DNA from: Pseudomonadota bacterium
GTDB taxonomy: Bacteria > Pseudomonadota > Gammaproteobacteria > Burkholderiales > Gallionellaceae
Reading direction: 5' to 3'
Length of the DNA: 64,000 nucleotides
NCBI GenBank assembly: GCA_021782365.1
Contig: JAJXVB010000006.1
Location: forward strand, 1-64,000
Part shown: positions 6,759-46,893 of the stretch, piece after piece
Numbering within the stretch: the first letter of the stretch is position 1
How the letters are laid out: each line of letters begins with the position of its first letter
Position numbers and translations under genes: made by a program
The notes under the pieces: generated by a model
What the model was told of the DNA's origin: nothing
The model's input: the letters and a program-made list of their open reading frames with translations, nothing else
Databases searched by the model: none

Positions 6759-8357
6759 ATGCTTTCCACCGCCAACATCACCATGCAATTCGGCTCCAAG
6801 CCGCTGTTCGAAAACGTGTCCGTGAAATTCGGCAACGGCAACCGCTACGGCCTGATCGGCGCCAATGGCTGCGGCAAGTCCACCTTCATGAAGATACTGG
6901 GCGGAGACCTCGCGCAGACCTCGGGCGAGGTGATGCTGGACAAGGGGGAGCGGCTGGGCAAGCTGCGCCAGGACCAGTTCGCCTATGAAGACAACCGCGT
7001 GCTGGACGTGGTGATGATGGGCCACAAGGAGATGTGGGAAGTGATGTCGGAGCGCGACGCGATCTACGCGAATGCCGACGCGACCGAAGAGGACTACATG
7101 CGCGCGGCCGATCTCGAAGCCGCCTTCGCAGAATTCGACGGCTATACGGCGGAGGCCAGGGCAGGAGAGTTGCTTCTGGGACTCGACATCGGAATCGATC
7201 TTCACCAGGGCAAGATGAGCGAGATTGCACCGGGCTTCAAGTTGCGCGTGCTGCTGGCCCAGGCGCTGTTTTCAAACCCGGACATACTGCTGCTAGACGA
7301 ACCAACCAACAACCTCGACATCAACACCATACGCTGGCTGGAAAACATCCTCAATGCGCGCACGTCGACGATGATCATCATCTCGCACGACCGGCATTTC
7401 CTGAACAGCGTCTGCACCCATATGTGCGACCTGGACTACGGCAAGATCACGACCTACCCCGGCAACTACGACGACTACATGCTGGCCTCGACCCAGGCGC
7501 GCGAGCAGCAGGCTGCCGACAATGCACGCGCGAAGGAAAAGGTCGCAGAACTCAAGGCCTTCGTCGCGCGTTTCTCGGCCAATGCCTCCAAGGCCAGGCA
7601 GGCCACTTCGCGCGCGCGCCAGATCGACAAGATCAAGATCGAGGACATCAAGCCATCCAGCCGCCAGTATCCCTTCATCAGATTCGAATACGACGAAAGG
7701 GAGAAGCTTCATCGCACCGCAGTCGAGGTCGAGAAGCTGTCCAAGGGCTTCGACCGAGTGCTCTTCTCCAACGTGAATTTCCGCATCGATGCCGGGGAGA
7801 AGATCGCGATCATCGGGCCCAACGGCATCGGAAAGACCACGCTCCTGCGCTGCCTGGCAAACGACCTTACTCCCGACACCGGCTCCATCAAATGGACTGA
7901 AAAAGCGAAGATCGGCTATTACGCGCAGGATCACAGTGCAGAATTTGCAGTCGACCAAAGCATGACGGACTGGATGACGCAATGGCGCGGAGCAAATGAC
8001 GACGATCAGGCTGTGCGCGCGACCCTCGGCCGACTTCTTTTCTCCGGCGACGAGGCGAAGAAGCAGGTGAAAGTGCTGTCTGGCGGCGAAAAGGGACGCA
8101 TGCTCTTCGGCAAGCTGATGCTCTCCCGCCCTAATGTCTTGCTGATGGACGAGCCGACCAACCACATGGACATGGAATCCATCGAGTCGCTCAACACGGC
8201 ACTGCTCGAATACAAGGGCACGGTGATCTTCGTGAGCCATGACCGCGAATTCGTCTCTTCTCTTGCCACCCGCATCATCGAGATTTCCGAAAAGGGCGTG
8301 ACCGACTACCACGGCACCTACGAGGAATATCTGCGTGAACAGGGCATGACACTTTAG
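6759..8357 (+). CDS. ABC-F family ATPase, YbiT type
   Basis: Soluble protein with two ABC ATPase domains and no membrane segments, a translation factor-like ribosome-associated ATPase by family. Domain 1 has Walker [10 protein letters not shown] (near residue 36) and Walker [13 protein letters not shown], with the noncanonical signature [16 protein letters not shown] that is typical of YbiT. A charged linker spans roughly residues 230-310. Domain 2 has GPNGIGKTT (near 352), [14 protein letters not shown] and [12 protein letters not shown]. The 532 residues match YbiT. murI follows after four bases, so they are probably cotranscribed. The exact role of YbiT-type proteins is poorly known. Confidence 0.92.
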
Positions 8358-8361
8358 GCGC

Positions 8362-9150
8362 ATGACGACAATAGGCGTGTTCGATTCAGGCGTAGGCGGG
8401 CTTTCCGTGCTGCGCCACATCCGGACTTTGCTGCCTGATGCGGATCTCGTCTATGTCGCGGATTCCGCCCATGTTCCCTATGGAGACAAACCCCAGCATT
8501 ACATAGAGCAGCGCGCCGTCGAGCTGACGCGCTTTTTGATCGAACAGGGCGCGGAAGCCATCGTGATCGCCTGCAACACCGCGACTGCGGCGGCGGCAGC
8601 GAGATTGCGCCGTGATTTTGAATGTCCGATCATCGGCATGGAGCCCGCGGTCAAACCTGCAGTCACGGCAACGAAAAGCGGCGTGGTGGGAATCCTCGCG
8701 ACCGTCGGCACCCTCAAGAGCGCGCGCTTTGCCGCCCTGCTCGAGCGACATGCGAAGGGCATCGAAGTCATCACTCAGGGATGCCCCGGCCTTGTCGAGC
8801 AGGTCGAATCGGGCGACCTTGAAGGACCCGAAACCTTAAGTCTCGTCGAGCGCTACACAAGGCCACTGCTTTCTCACGGTGCTGACACGCTGATCCTGGG
8901 TTGCACCCATTATCCATTTCTTGCACCGATGATATGCAAAGTCGCAGGTCCAGATATTGCGCTGATCGACACGGGAGAAGCGGTCGCCCGCCAGTTGCAG
9001 CGCAGGCTCCTGGCGGAACTTCCAGACACCTTACCCGGTGACGGGCTCGAGCATTTCTTCACGAGCGGCGACCCGCATGCAGCAAGCCTCATCATGTCCA
9101 AGCTCTGGGGAAACGCTGTGGTTGTTCATCCGATGGAAGACGCCGTTTAA
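8362..9150 (+). CDS. murI: Glutamate racemase
   Basis: Converts L-glutamate to D-glutamate for peptidoglycan. The N-terminus IGVFDSGVGGLSVLRHI is diagnostic. The two catalytic cysteines lie in IACNTATAA (near residue 71) and LGCTHYPF (near 181). 262 residues is the usual length. It begins four bases after the ABC-F stop. The cell-wall role links it loosely with mpl at the far end of the window, but there is no local cell-wall cluster. Confidence 0.95.
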   Translation: MTTIGVFDSGVGGLSVLRHIRTLLPDADLVYVADSAHVPYGDKPQHYIEQRAVELTRFLIEQGAEAIVIACNTATAAAAARLRRDFECPIIGMEPAVKPAVTATKSGVVGILATVGTLKSARFAALLERHAKGIEVITQGCPGLVEQVESGDLEGPETLSLVERYTRPLLSHGADTLILGCTHYPFLAPMICKVAGPDIALIDTGEAVARQLQRRLLAELPDTLPGDGLEHFFTSGDPHAASLIMSKLWGNAVVVHPMEDAV

Positions 9151-9227
9151 TTTATTGTTCACATACGCTTAACCCGCCTGCAACATGCAAGGCTTAGTCT
9201 GATCGCACTACCTTCAAGGAGGCGATC

Positions 9228-9986
9228 ATGCTTGACCTGTTACACCCAGCAGCAGCCCAGCCCTCTCGCAGCTTGAGCTGCGAACTTGCAAAAACACCCG
9301 AAGAAATCAGGGAAGCCCAGCGCATACGCTATCAGGTATTCGGGCTCGAAATGGGCGCAAAGCTTCCCAGCGCCTCATCAGGTCTCGACATCGACCGCTT
9401 CGACGAGTACTGCGATCATCTCCTGGTGCGTGACCAGGGCAACAGCAAGGTGGTTGGAACCTATCGCATCCTCTCTCCCGAACAGGCCTGCAATGCAGGC
9501 GGATACTATTCCGAGACAGAATTCGACATGAGCAGCCTGCAGCACCTGCGCGGCCGCATGGCCGAAGTCGGCCGCTCCTGCGTGGACGTTCACTACAGGG
9601 ACGGCGCGACGATCGCCCAGCTCTGGTCGGGGCTTGCCGAATACATCACGAAGCGCAATCACGAATACCTGATCGGCTGTGCCAGCATCGGCATGAGCGA
9701 TGGCGGGCACTATGCCGCAAGCGTGTTCAACAAGGTCTTCAAGCTTCACGCATCTCCTGAAGAGCTGCGCGTTGCGCCGCATCGCCGTTTACCCATCGAG
9801 AATCTGGAACAGAATCTCGACGTGATCATACCTCCGCTGATCAAGGGCTATCTGCGCCTGGGCGCCTATGTCGCGGGAGAACCCGCATGGGATCCCGAAT
9901 TCAACTCCGCCGATCTCTTCATCCTGCTCCCCGTATCGCGCATCAGCGCGCGCGCCACCCGGCATTTCCTGCGCAGGGCCTCATAA
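9228..9986 (+). CDS. OlsB-like N-acyltransferase (ornithine lipid / N-acyl amino acid synthase)
   Basis: GNAT-fold acyltransferase of the OlsB family, which transfers a 3-hydroxyacyl chain from ACP to the alpha-amino group of ornithine to make lyso-ornithine lipid. Family segments are AQRIRYQVFGLEMGA (about residues 31-45), FDEYCDHLLVRD, VGTYRIL and EVGRSCVDVHYRDGATIAQL (about 115-135). A strong AAGGAGG at 9216-9222 fixes the ATG. No olsA-type second acyltransferase is adjacent. Instead dgkA, a glycosyltransferase and a PAP2 phosphatase follow. A terminator after the gene separates it from dgkA. The amino acid substrate cannot be told from sequence; some relatives use other amino acids. Confidence 0.82.
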   Translation: MLDLLHPAAAQPSRSLSCELAKTPEEIREAQRIRYQVFGLEMGAKLPSASSGLDIDRFDEYCDHLLVRDQGNSKVVGTYRILSPEQACNAGGYYSETEFDMSSLQHLRGRMAEVGRSCVDVHYRDGATIAQLWSGLAEYITKRNHEYLIGCASIGMSDGGHYAASVFNKVFKLHASPEELRVAPHRRLPIENLEQNLDVIIPPLIKGYLRLGAYVAGEPAWDPEFNSADLFILLPVSRISARATRHFLRRAS

Positions 9987-10005
9987 AACCGCACATCCCC
10001 CTTTG

Positions 10006-10028
10006 ACGCGCATTGCGCGTTTTTTTTT
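10006..10028 (+). terminator. Intrinsic terminator after the OlsB-like gene
   Basis: Six-base-pair stem ACGCGC (10006-10011) / GCGCGT (10015-10020) with an ATT loop, followed by a run of nine T (10020-10028). It isolates the OlsB-like gene from dgkA. Confidence 0.85.
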
Positions 10029-10083: not shown

Positions 10084-10455
10084 ATGGAAAGTCCCTACAA
10101 AGGCAAGACCGGCTTGCGCCGCCTGATCAATGCGTTCGGCTATTCTCTGGCCGGCTTTCGCGCGGCCTACAAGCATGAAGACGCATTCCGCCAGGAAGTG
10201 CTGCTCGCAGCCATCCTGATACCGCTCGCCATTTTTCTGCCGGCAAACCTGATCGGCAAGGCGCTGATGGTAGGCAGCGTGCTTTTGGTGATCATCGTCG
10301 AGCTGATCAATTCCGGGATAGAGGCGACGGTCGACCGCATCTCTCTGGACAGCCATGATCTTGCCAAGCGCGCGAAGGACATCGGCAGCGCCGCAGTTCT
10401 GGTGAGCCTCATCAATGCTGTGGTCGTCTGGGCGCTGGTTTTGATGGCTTCATGA
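10084..10455 (+). CDS. dgkA: Diacylglycerol kinase, integral membrane type
   Basis: Phosphorylates diacylglycerol to phosphatidic acid in the inner membrane. The 123 residues contain the N-terminal amphipathic helix, AYKHEDAFRQEVLL (catalytic/metal-binding Glu region), three membrane helices and the signature VELINSGIEATVDRIS. The length is the usual one for this small trimeric enzyme. It lies 55 bases after the terminator of the OlsB-like gene, and its stop codon falls inside the first of the 11-base repeats that precede the next gene. By recycling diacylglycerol it would act opposite to the PAP2 phosphatase two genes on. Confidence 0.94.
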   Translation: MESPYKGKTGLRRLINAFGYSLAGFRAAYKHEDAFRQEVLLAAILIPLAIFLPANLIGKALMVGSVLLVIIVELINSGIEATVDRISLDSHDLAKRAKDIGSAAVLVSLINAVVVWALVLMAS

Positions 10456-10490
10456 AATCTTCAACAAAGGTTCATGAAAGCTTCATGCAG
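10447..10490 (+). promoter_or_regulatory. Pho-box-like array of four 11-base direct repeats
   Basis: Four consecutive 11-base units at 10447, 10458, 10469 and 10480 read GCTTCATGAAA, TCTTCAACAAA, GGTTCATGAAA and GCTTCATGCAG. Each has TTCA at the same place, and three continue into an A-rich tail. This is the period and layout of PhoB sites (CTGTCATAWAW units, 7 conserved plus 4 A/T-rich). Units 1 and 3 match that unit at about 7 of 11 positions. The array overlaps the end of dgkA and immediately precedes the glycosyltransferase gene. Another OmpR-family regulator is possible, since they share this architecture. Confidence 0.6.
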
Positions 10491-10500
10491 CCGCATCACG

Positions 10501-11718
10501 ATGCGTTTCATGATGAACGAAACCGAAGGCTTGCCAAAACGCCTGCGCATCGCGCTGGTCACTGAAACTTACCTGCCCGAGGTCAACGGCGTTGCGATCA
10601 CCATAGGGCGCATGGTGCATGGGCTATGCGAACGCGGCCACGACATACACCTTGTCAGGCCTCGCCAGCATCGCGATGATGTGGCGACAAGCTCGGTCAA
10701 TTATCGCGAGACGCTGGTCAAGGGCATGCCCATACCGGGCTATCCCGAACTCAAGTCCGGCCTGCCCGCCAAGGGAAGGTTGCTGAGCCTCTGGAAGGAG
10801 GCGCGCCCTGACATCGTTCATATCGCAACAGAAGGGCCGCTTGGCTGGTCTGCCCTGGCGGCCGCAAAGAGGCTTGAAATCCCGGTCAGCACGGACTTCC
10901 ACACCAACTTCCACAGCTACACCAAGCACTACGGAATAGGTCTTCTGAAATGGCCCATCGCGGCTTACCTCAGGCATTTCCACAACAAGGCCGCCTGCAC
11001 TCTCGTGCCCACTGACGAACTGCAAAAGCAGCTTGCAGAAGAAGGCTACCGCAATGTGGAAGTGGTATCGCGCGGCGTCGACACCCAGCTCTTCAATCCC
11101 AAAAGGCGAAGCGCCGAGCTTCGCGCATCCTGGGGTGCAGATGAAGATACCCCTGTCGTGATGCTGGTGAGCCGCCTCGCTGCAGAAAAAAACCTGGGCC
11201 TTGCGATAGATGCCTTCTACAAGATGCGAGAGGCGAACCCGGATGCCAGGATGGTGCTGGTAGGCGACGGGCCTGCGCGCGAAAGACTCCAGAAGCAGTA
11301 CCCCGACATCATTTTTTCGGGCATGCAAAAGGGCGAGAATCTGGCCGAGCACTATGCATCCGGCGATATCTTCATCTACCCCAGCATGACCGAGACCTAT
11401 GGCAACGTGACGATAGAGGCGATGGCAAGCGGCCTGGCTACGGTCGCCTTCGATTATGCCGCAGCGCGCCAGCATATAGTCAACGACTCAAGCGGCGTTC
11501 TGGTTCCCATGGGCGACGAGCAGGCATTCATCCTGCAGGCCGTCTTGCTGATAGAGGACAGGGAGCGCATAACGCGCCTGCGCAATGCGGCTCACGAGGC
11601 GGTCAGGCTTCAAGGGTGGAGTCACATCATGAATCAGATGGAATCGATGCTCTTCAAGACATTGCATACGGAGGGAATATCAAATGGCCAACCTGAATTC
11701 GCCGCTGCAACGGATTAA
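10501..11718 (+). CDS. Glycosyltransferase family 4, MgtA-like (possible glycolipid synthesis)
   Basis: Retaining GT-B glycosyltransferase similar to GDP-mannose-dependent or diacylglycerol glycosyltransferases. It starts like the family (RIALVTETYLPEVNGVA), has DFHTNFHSY, the nucleotide-binding VSRLAAEKNLGL and the EX7E motif in TETYGNVTIEAMASG near residue 298. Start uncertain: ATGs at 10474 (inside the 11-base repeats), 10501, 10510 and 10513 are in frame and none has a good ribosome site. I use 10501 because the repeats should lie upstream of the coding region. It overlaps the PAP2 gene by 35 bases. Neighbours suggest diacylglycerol as acceptor, but this is inference. Confidence 0.85.
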   Translation: MRFMMNETEGLPKRLRIALVTETYLPEVNGVAITIGRMVHGLCERGHDIHLVRPRQHRDDVATSSVNYRETLVKGMPIPGYPELKSGLPAKGRLLSLWKEARPDIVHIATEGPLGWSALAAAKRLEIPVSTDFHTNFHSYTKHYGIGLLKWPIAAYLRHFHNKAACTLVPTDELQKQLAEEGYRNVEVVSRGVDTQLFNPKRRSAELRASWGADEDTPVVMLVSRLAAEKNLGLAIDAFYKMREANPDARMVLVGDGPARERLQKQYPDIIFSGMQKGENLAEHYASGDIFIYPSMTETYGNVTIEAMASGLATVAFDYAAARQHIVNDSSGVLVPMGDEQAFILQAVLLIEDRERITRLRNAAHEAVRLQGWSHIMNQMESMLFKTLHTEGISNGQPEFAAATD

Positions 11719-12217
11719 CGACTTCGACGCGGCGCTCTGCCATCTTTGCAACCGGCAGAGCCGGAATTTTTATGTGCGCCATGTTTTCCGCCTGGTCAGC
11801 CGCTTGGGAGACGGCATATTCTGGTATGCGCTGATGGCGCTGTTAATGCTTAAATACCAGGAGCAGGCATTGCCGGCCGTGCTGCACATGCTGGCGGTCG
11901 GGCTTGTCGGGACTGCGATCTACAAGCTCATCAAGGAACACACGCTGCGCCCCAGACCCTTCAACGTATACCCGTCCATCATCTGCACAGGAAAAACGCT
12001 GGACCAGTTCAGCTTCCCTTCAGGCCACACCATGCACGCCGTTTCGTTCAGCCTAATCTCGATATACTATTTCCCCGCTCTCGCTTGGCTGACGATCCCC
12101 TTCGCAGCGCTGGTCGCCCTCTCCCGACCGGTGCTGGGCCTGCACTACCCGACGGACGTGCTGGCCGGAATCGCGCTTGGCGCAGCGATCGCATCGGCAT
12201 CCTTCCTATGCATCTAG
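11684..12217 (+). CDS. PAP2-family membrane phosphatase
   Basis: Integral membrane phosphatase of the phosphatidic acid / undecaprenyl pyrophosphate phosphatase superfamily. The three catalytic motifs are present: KEHTLRPRP (KX6RP), FPSGHTMH (PSGH) and SRPVLGLHYPTDVLAG (SRX5HX3D). The 177 residues hold about five membrane helices. The start lies inside the glycosyltransferase gene (35-base overlap), so the two are translationally linked. A reasonable hypothesis is that it makes diacylglycerol from phosphatidic acid for the glycosyltransferase next door. Its stop is seven bases from the convergent uspA stop. Confidence 0.9.
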   Translation: MANLNSPLQRINDFDAALCHLCNRQSRNFYVRHVFRLVSRLGDGIFWYALMALLMLKYQEQALPAVLHMLAVGLVGTAIYKLIKEHTLRPRPFNVYPSIICTGKTLDQFSFPSGHTMHAVSFSLISIYYFPALAWLTIPFAALVALSRPVLGLHYPTDVLAGIALGAAIASASFLCI

Positions 12218-45932: not shown

Positions 45933-46893
45933 CGCCTTTTTCCTGATGCATGCGCCAGCGCTTGTCCACCCACATGCTTATCCCCAGATAAATTGCAGCC
46001 CAGAAGGCCAGGAGATTACCCTGAAATTTCCTATCCATGTGCAATCCGATCAGCGCCGATATGCCGGCCAGCACCATCAGCACATATTCTGCAATGGCCG
46101 TGTTGCGATGCCCCCACCCCATCTTCACCAGCCTCTGGTAATAATGGCTGCAATGGGCGACGGAAAGCGCCTCCCTTTTGCGAATGCGCCTGAAAAGCGT
46201 GAATGTCGCATCGACCACGAAAGGCGAGAACACCAGAAGAGGGAACCAGAAAGGCCAATATCCCTTCTGCCAACCCATCACGCCGAAGGCTGCGGCAAGG
46301 AATCCAAGCGGGATCGAACCCGCATCGCCCATGAAGATTTTTGCAGGATGAAAATTGTGATACAGGAATCCCATCGCCGCCGCACCCACCGTGAAACTGA
46401 GCATCGCGAAGGAGGCATTCCCGTTCATCAGGGCAGCGATGCCATAGAAGCTGAAACCCATCAGCGCCATGCCGCCCGCGAGGCCGTCCGAACCGTCCAT
46501 GAAATTGTAAAGGTTGGTCATCCAGACGATGTAAATCGTGACCGGCAGCATCCACACCCCGCCAAGTTTTGAACCCAGCACCACGCACAGCGCCGCGATG
46601 AAATGGCCGACCAGGCGAATCTTAGGCTTCAGACCGCGCACATCGTCGACGAGCGACATGAGGAAAAGCCCCAGCATCGGAACGACGAACCACCATTCCC
46701 ATGACTTGAAAAGCAGAACCCAGCCCGACATGATGCCCGCCAATAGCGCGATGCCGCCCGTGCGCGGTACCGGCTTGTCGTGCAGCGAGCGTTCGTTCGG
46801 GATGTCCTCTATCGTACCGTGCTTGCTCAAAGTCAGAATCAGCGCCAGCAGCATGGTGACTGCGGCCGAGATCAGCGGTGAATATTGGTTCAT
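45922..46893 (-). CDS. Undecaprenyl-phosphate sugar-1-phosphate transferase (WecA/MraY superfamily)
   Basis: Polytopic enzyme that loads the first sugar phosphate on undecaprenyl phosphate. 323 residues, about eleven helices, with the metal-binding LVDDVRGLKPK, NLYNFMDGSDGLAGGMA and KIFMGDAGSIPLGFLAAAFG, and a cytoplasmic TLFRRIRKREALSVAHCSHYYQR-type segment near 250. The start is ATG 46891-46893 (MNQYSPLIS), 44 bases after waaC; the longer frame runs back over waaC. It would work with the dehydratase encoded immediately downstream. Confidence 0.92.
   Translation of the reverse strand: MNQYSPLISAAVTMLLALILTLSKHGTIEDIPNERSLHDKPVPRTGGIALLAGIMSGWVLLFKSWEWWFVVPMLGLFLMSLVDDVRGLKPKIRLVGHFIAALCVVLGSKLGGVWMLPVTIYIVWMTNLYNFMDGSDGLAGGMALMGFSFYGIAALMNGNASFAMLSFTVGAAAMGFLYHNFHPAKIFMGDAGSIPLGFLAAAFGVMGWQKGYWPFWFPLLVFSPFVVDATFTLFRRIRKREALSVAHCSHYYQRLVKMGWGHRNTAIAEYVLMVLAGISALIGLHMDRKFQGNLLAFWAAIYLGISMWVDKRWRMHQEKGDAE

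Follow-up and report, generated by a model that had tools for sequence, protein, structure and literature searches.

The stretch analysed here (the window) comprises 64,000 nucleotides of a Gallionellaceae genome of 2,527,798 bases (2.53 Mb, 93.7% complete). Four genes follow one another on its + strand in the order olsB-like, dgkA, GT4 glycosyltransferase (GT) and PAP2-superfamily phosphatase, and arrays of four 11 bp units precede the first and the third of them (Table 1). The overlap of the GT4 gene with the PAP2 gene described in the first-pass annotation was confirmed; it amounts to 35 bp, and the domains of both families were detected. The dgkA product scored 119.1 bits against a PF01219 cut-off of 22.3. 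The first gene product matched two OlsB models of NCBIfam best, but its scores of 179 and 175 bits stayed below their curated cut-offs (320 and 350, respectively); OlsB being the best family despite these scores, the gene is named OlsB-like. Terminator-like sites numbered five in the scanned 3.3 kb, compared with a shuffle mean of 3.2, and the hairpin after olsB is weak on its own.

The longest GT reading frame (414 aa) starts at 10474, within the repeats, while 120 listed homologues measure 390–413 aa and an identical protein record of 405 aa (P0001) matches a start at 10501. Translation of the GT therefore probably begins at 10501 or further downstream.

Table 1. Features of the locus, with positions in the window
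Feature	Position	Strand	Basis
Four-unit PhoB-type array before olsB	9145..9188	+	Top four-unit score of the unit matrix in the window; arrays before olsB of relatives
olsB-like N-acyltransferase (ornithine-lipid synthesis)	9228..9986	+	PF13444
Terminator-like hairpin and T-run after olsB	10005..10021	+	Consensus scan
dgkA, prokaryotic diacylglycerol kinase	10084..10455	+	PF01219, E 8.3e-35
Four-unit PhoB-type array before the GT gene	10447..10490	+	Repeats, genome pattern counts, unit matrix, conservation
GT4 glycosyltransferase, probable diacylglycerol glycosyltransferase	10501..11718 (start 10501, 10510 or 10513)	+	PF13439, PF00534
PAP2-superfamily lipid phosphatase, probable diacylglycerol source	11684..12217	+	PF01569

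Tandem 11 bp arrays before the GT and olsB genes

The array before the GT gene consists of the units GCTTCATGAAA, TCTTCAACAAA, GGTTCATGAAA and GCTTCATGCAG, in which TTCA starts at 10449, 10460, 10471 and 10482. The first-pass annotation had reported four in-phase 11-base units with TTCA at the same position, overlapping the dgkA stop and ending in A-rich tails. The phase, the TTCA and the overlap were all present, unit 1 covering the stop codon at 10453–10455, but the tails are A-rich in units 1–3 only, that of unit 4 being GCAG. Four TTCA at exact 11 bp spacing gave a single match in the 2,527,798 bases of the genome, and a reversed-pattern control gave none. When up to three mismatches were allowed, the window yielded four matches, all within the 10447–10490 block; the mean in 100 dinucleotide shuffles was 0.5, with no shuffle reaching four. 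In the interval 10447–10501 a sigma-70 scan listed no promoter on the + strand, which weighs against the PhoB-activated operon proposed below.

The PhoB box is described as a tandem of 11 bp units that share a core like TGTCA(T), the consensus being CTGTCATNNNNCTGTCAT (PMC8528852, available part of the text). The genome encodes PhoB, PhoR and PhoU above curated cut-offs and also PstS, and the ORFs behind pstS look by eye like pstC, pstA and pstB; its own pstS promoter carries no clean TTCA repeats. The training set was drawn from the genus, as 60 promoters (the 30 best phoB and the 30 best pstS matches). An unsupervised motif search of these promoters returned TGTCATAATCCTGTCATAAAT, a box like that of E. 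coli (TGTCAT-NNNN-CTGTCAT). Of the 60 promoters, 58 held a site and were used for training; the pstS upstream regions of L196 and L212 had none. At phoB promoters a third unit, NNTTCAT, was common by eye, and its core is shared with the units of the window.

A strict 22 bp matrix was dominated by near-identical phoB promoters, and an 11 bp unit matrix was used instead, built from 72 distinct units of phoB and pstS sites and none from GT or olsB. Scoring of the repeats with a PhoB matrix, as proposed in the first-pass annotation, gave a divided result. With the strict matrix, the best forward-strand site of the GT region reached only −15.6 bits (rank 655 of 127,958), and the region p values of the nearest relatives (L045–L048) were 0.26–0.37. 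Of the 78 GT upstream regions of relatives as a whole, 59 reached p<0.05 and 27 reached p<0.01 by the strict matrix. With the unit matrix, in contrast, the two best four-unit sites of the window were the olsB array (16.0) and the GT array (8.8), and the p value of the latter for a 165 bp region was 0.0019 for four units, 0.0035 for three, 0.028 for two and 0.40 for one. In the three-unit scan the GT array ranked fourth of 127,936 places; ahead of it were the olsB array, in two registers, and one site at 46333.

The higher-scoring olsB array (GTTTAATTTAT TGTTCACATAC GCTTAACCCGC CTGCAACATGC), which lies 83 bp before olsB, was absent from the first-pass annotation. Ornithine-lipid synthesis is under PhoB/PhoR in Sinorhizobium and Vibrio, according to the available part of PMC11828411.

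Within this genome the unit matrix was checked on 227 kb of chosen stretches, some of them picked for TTCA repeats, so that the outcome is not a genome-wide rank. At a score of at least 8.8 it found phoB, pstS, phoU, olsB and GT (the lowest), together with two places on contigs C6 and C11; phoU was recovered though absent from the training set. The phoU box reads TTGTCATATTT CTTTCATGATC GTATAATAGTA (L022, 9311–9343, contig C5 of this genome), and phoU here adjoins a ppx-like gene (by eye), outside the pst operon. The places on C6 (L007, 1507) and C11 (L011, 1421) are high-scoring four-unit arrays as well. Promoters of plcP, likewise untrained, scored at least 10 in 26 of 35 distinct upstream regions (250 bp regions, without a matching background), the 35 coming from 40 of 48 upstream sequences (L123 and L142–L148 left out).

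Conservation was assessed at the best 80 of 232 confirmed stretches carrying the GT. Upstream tests covered 78 of these GT loci (L077 and L116 had too little upstream sequence) and 50 of the 52 loci with olsB. Four-unit scores of at least 10 were found before GT in 63/78, before olsB in 38/50, before dgkA in 1/62, before PAP2 in 0/74 and in 19/319 other intergenic regions; compared with these 319 regions, the scores were higher for GT (p 9e-38) and olsB (9e-26) by Mann–Whitney tests uncorrected for the relatedness of the sequences. With three units at p<0.05 the counts were 78/78 for GT, 48/50 for olsB, 0/74 for PAP2 and 15/62 for dgkA, the last exceeding the expected 5%, and no site was found before USP (0/3) or murI (0/4); at p<0.01 they were 42/78, 14/50 and 2/62 for GT, olsB and dgkA, respectively. 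Of the 319 intergenic regions, all from relatives, 6.3% scored as high as the window GT array with four units and 10.3% with three, and taken alone this array is a moderate match. Since the strict matrix misses the window's own site, the case for PhoB is carried by conservation.

The consensus of 49 distinct GT arrays, ccGTCAcaAAc TcTTCAAnaAa nctTaATCAAA taTTCATgcgn, holds T at position 4 of units 1–4 in 49, 49, 49 and 48 arrays, and A at position 6 in 49, 48, 49 and 47. A matrix of GT arrays built without L045–L048 placed 10447 first in the window (41.6, with the next non-overlapping site at 10.5), and a matrix of olsB arrays placed the GT array second (9.6, versus 37.2 for olsB's own site). 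By the GT-array matrix, the phoB and phoU promoters of this genome scored above the 99.99th percentile of the window, and pstS above the 99.9th only. The PhoB control suggested in the first-pass annotation gains from the unit matrix, from the conserved array before GT and from pst, phoU or plcP genes near GT in some relatives; by such comparison it is well supported, with PhoB as the predicted binding protein.

Pairing of the GT with PAP2 or PlcP

The nearest NCBIfam models of the GT were N-acetylglucosaminyl-phosphatidylglycerol synthase and monoglucosyl-diacylglycerol synthase, with scores far under the cut-off in both cases; among solved structures, the group-1 glycosyltransferase 2jjm, PimA and BshA were the closest. 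The EX7E residues E298 and E306 were invariant in alignments A1 and A2, and a pattern search found EX7E at 75 of the 80 GT loci. The next GT match in this genome scored 58.8 bits, compared with 113–131 bits for the GT4b genes of relatives. The GT is a probable diacylglycerol (DAG) glycosyltransferase. At L123, a gene of the UDP-glucose dehydrogenase family (7094–8578) lies beside the GT, a hint, from this one locus, at UDP-glucuronate as sugar donor.

At 74 of the 80 loci a PAP2 gene was found within 400 bp downstream of the GT; in 61 of these the spacing was −60 to +20 bp. Thiobacillus thioparus DSM 505 (L107) and Sulfuriferula multivorans TTN (L099) are among the isolates that have the pair. 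The PAP2-superfamily motifs KX6RP, PSGH and SRX5HX3D were present in the window PAP2 and in all 68 relatives (of the 74) with at least 140 aa matched. The dgkA gene occurred at 62 of the 80 loci, adjoining the GT at 40. PAP2 was missing at six: L050, L086, L112, L093, L110 and L123. At L050, L086 and L112, neither PAP2 nor PlcP was detected within the 486, 1215 and 1234 bases after the GT, respectively; the isolate that yielded L086, STC_76, is also the source of L073, where the GT–PAP2 pair is present. A PlcP-like gene was found at L093 and L110, whereas L123 carries, besides the dehydrogenase gene, OlsB and a PlcP-like gene 2.5 kb away. The PlcP-like protein is related to LpxH and falls below the LpxH cut-offs, as expected for PlcP.

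Four neighbourhoods combine the GT with a PlcP-like gene no more than about 1.1 kb away, and a tblastn search with the window PAP2 detected no PAP2 in them. The order is dgkA–GT–PlcP–pstSCA at L270, with 0.8 kb between GT and PlcP; GT–PhoU–PlcP–GT4b on the contig of L271 and L093, where L271 continues to olsB and pstSCA; GT4b–PlcP–GT at L272; and convergent GT and PlcP at L110. These PlcP-paired GTs occupied four places in the GT tree, at least three of them forced by well-supported branches. L270 was placed beside PAP2-paired genes with strong support, and L272, L110 and L093 sat on long branches and are less certain. Because a PlcP-like gene takes the place of PAP2 near the same GT, this swapping supports the assignment as a DAG glycosyltransferase that would be fed by PAP2. 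At L273 (1–12500), PAP2–GT–dgkA, two alkaline phosphatases, a PlcP-like gene, a second GT4 and a PhoU-like gene occur together, both systems lying within about 9 kb.

Among 158 genomes of the family, 70 had the GT, 47 had PlcP, 21 had both (20.8 expected) and 62 had neither. Strict mutual exclusion of GT–PAP2 and PlcP was rejected by these counts (Fisher p = 1), and also by the four genomes with the most similar GTs (G031, G004, G105 and G106), all of which have PlcP, the match in G031 holding one TGA. GT and PlcP are distributed independently, not exclusively. In this genome, at 93.7% completeness, PlcP gave no match; since the most GT-similar relatives have both genes, PlcP may have been lost recently or may fall into an assembly gap. 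The first-pass view of the pair as a different solution from PlcP fits the 49 of 70 GT-bearing genomes, this one included, with no PlcP match, but not the 21 with one, among them the four most GT-similar. PAP2–GT is an alternative or parallel route to PlcP, not its strict replacement.

Proposed mechanism and alternative explanations

Taken together, 10447–12217 probably represents a PhoB-activated lipid-remodelling operon, in which GT4 and PAP2 would make a phosphorus-free glycolipid and olsB would be activated separately. Sequence comparison provides the arrays and their conservation, the pairing of the genes and the exchange of partners; PhoB binding, the substrates, the sugar and the induction are what we infer. 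At low phosphate, PhoB would bind the four 11 bp units and turn on the GT4 and PAP2 genes. PAP2 would dephosphorylate phosphatidic acid, and perhaps other lipid phosphates, to DAG, and the GT4 enzyme would add a sugar to yield the glycolipid, while the second array, at 9145, would turn on olsB and the formation of ornithine lipid. Separate activation of GT–PAP2 and olsB by PhoB appears most likely, a terminator-like hairpin following olsB. The DAG glycosylation fed by PAP2 that the first-pass annotation envisaged is plausible, and the swapping of PAP2 and PlcP near the same GT adds to it, with the enzyme activities as predictions. The dgkA gene between olsB and GT would work against PAP2; its frequent presence may serve to recycle DAG that other reactions release. 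Since PAP2 enzymes are usually periplasm-facing and GT4 enzymes act in the cytosol, DAG would have to flip, which counts against the proposed route. We give even odds to the reading in which this PhoB-controlled operon bypasses PlcP, with a dedicated PAP2 drawing on freshly synthesized phosphatidic acid for phosphate-free glycolipid, and in which one GT lineage was paired repeatedly with PlcP or PAP2. If this is true, bacteria can switch between salvage of old phospholipid and diversion of new synthesis.

Another OmpR-family regulator, PmrA, ColR or similar, might control envelope modification through GT–PAP2. Such regulators bind direct repeats of about 11 bp spacing and their regulons include dgkA and PAP2 genes; in addition, all four units of the window have TTCA instead of GTCA, and this missing G counts against PhoB. 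We consider this quite unlikely, however, because most relatives carry GTCA in the first unit (36 of the 49 distinct arrays have G at its position 3), the matrix trained on phoB and pstS separates GT and olsB promoters from others, and pst, phoU, plcP or alkaline-phosphatase genes flank 12 of the 80 GT loci (a count with no background rate). The overlap of unit 1 with the dgkA stop would also suit repeats that are non-regulatory, arising by chance or as a coding by-product of the dgkA 3′ end. That the exact pattern occurs once in the genome, and that an array scoring at least 8.8 was found at 21 of 21 GT loci without an adjacent dgkA (27 of 30 with one; 51 of 52 Gallionellaceae-like loci tested), makes this explanation extremely improbable.

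With control by PhoB as the preferred reading, the array could be PhoB-bound and the GT could make a glycolipid even if DAG came from elsewhere (PlcP or an MdoB-type reaction) and PAP2 served to recycle undecaprenyl diphosphate or to free lipid phosphate. The best NCBIfam match of the window PAP2 was indeed the undecaprenyl-diphosphatase SepP (56.6 bits against a cut-off of 250), followed by PgpB, and PlcP is also present in 21 of the 70 GT-bearing genomes. This source of DAG seems rather unlikely, given the 49 GT-bearing genomes without a PlcP match, the PAP2 gene after GT at most loci and the PlcP-like gene near the GT in the four neighbourhoods without PAP2. A weak match of PAP2 to LpxE in the PDB (6ebu, E 2e-4) could suggest a lipid A phosphatase, with the GT putting a sugar in place of the lipid A phosphate. 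PgpB and YodM were matched better, the closest models of the GT work on glycerolipids, a GT4 enzyme is expected in the cytosol, and a PlcP-like gene lies near the GT where PAP2 is missing, all of which render an LpxE-like role very unlikely.

Comparison with known lipid-remodelling systems

If the PAP2–GT operon is as proposed, bacteria other than cyanobacteria place the phosphatidate-phosphatase route under PhoB, and surveys with plcP as marker would miss PAP2–GT remodelling, 49 of the 158 family genomes having the GT and no PlcP match. In these relatives of the iron-oxidizing Gallionella, the GT–PAP2 pair is apparently induced by phosphate starvation and probably swaps the phosphate of lipid precursors for sugar. 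Iron oxides bind phosphate, and iron oxidizers are therefore a sensible place to look.

The PlcP–Agt systems of Agrobacterium, Phaeobacter, SAR11, Pseudomonas aeruginosa and Methylosinus resemble this locus in their PhoB-type boxes, in a DAG-forming enzyme beside a GT4 and in the accompanying ornithine lipid (available parts of PMC4796936, PMC8528852 and PMC9239053). Their defining feature is PlcP beside the GT, whereas here PAP2 stands in its place, and DAG would come from phosphatidic acid via PAP2 instead of from phospholipids via PlcP. Their DAG glycosyltransferase belongs to the GT4 family; the window GT, a candidate for this activity, has GT4 domains, its nearest models being glycerolipid glycosyltransferases below cut-off, and it shares 27.8% identity with the PlcP-linked GT4 of L110.

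In the available text of PMC4796936, the DAG of heterotrophs is attributed to PlcP, and a phosphatidate-phosphatase route is suggested for cyanobacteria only. That route, for which Nakamura 2007 is cited there, would likewise convert phosphatidate to DAG for non-phosphorus lipids; it is a proposal with no operon mentioned in that part of the text, whereas here, in Betaproteobacteria, a phosphatase and a GT lie behind a PhoB-type array. A further parallel is Desulfovibrio alaskensis with its Agt (Dde_3613) and OlsF, where phosphate limitation leads to the replacement of phospholipid by glycolipids and ornithine lipid; the source of DAG is unnamed, and neither 'phospholipase' nor 'PAP2' occurs in the main text (PMC5193443, as available). 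Our search of the open-licence PMC literature found no description of a PAP2–glycosyltransferase pair under phosphate or PhoB control in bacteria, and none of the matches listed dealt with the lipids of phosphate-limited Gallionellaceae. The available text of PMC10128005, on C. difficile, mentions PAP2 and glycosyltransferase, and PhoB not at all. The idea of DAG from phosphatidate is already in print, as far as the available text of these sources goes, and our best reading of the PAP2–GT pair under PhoB, not found described, is that of a variant of PlcP–Agt remodelling.
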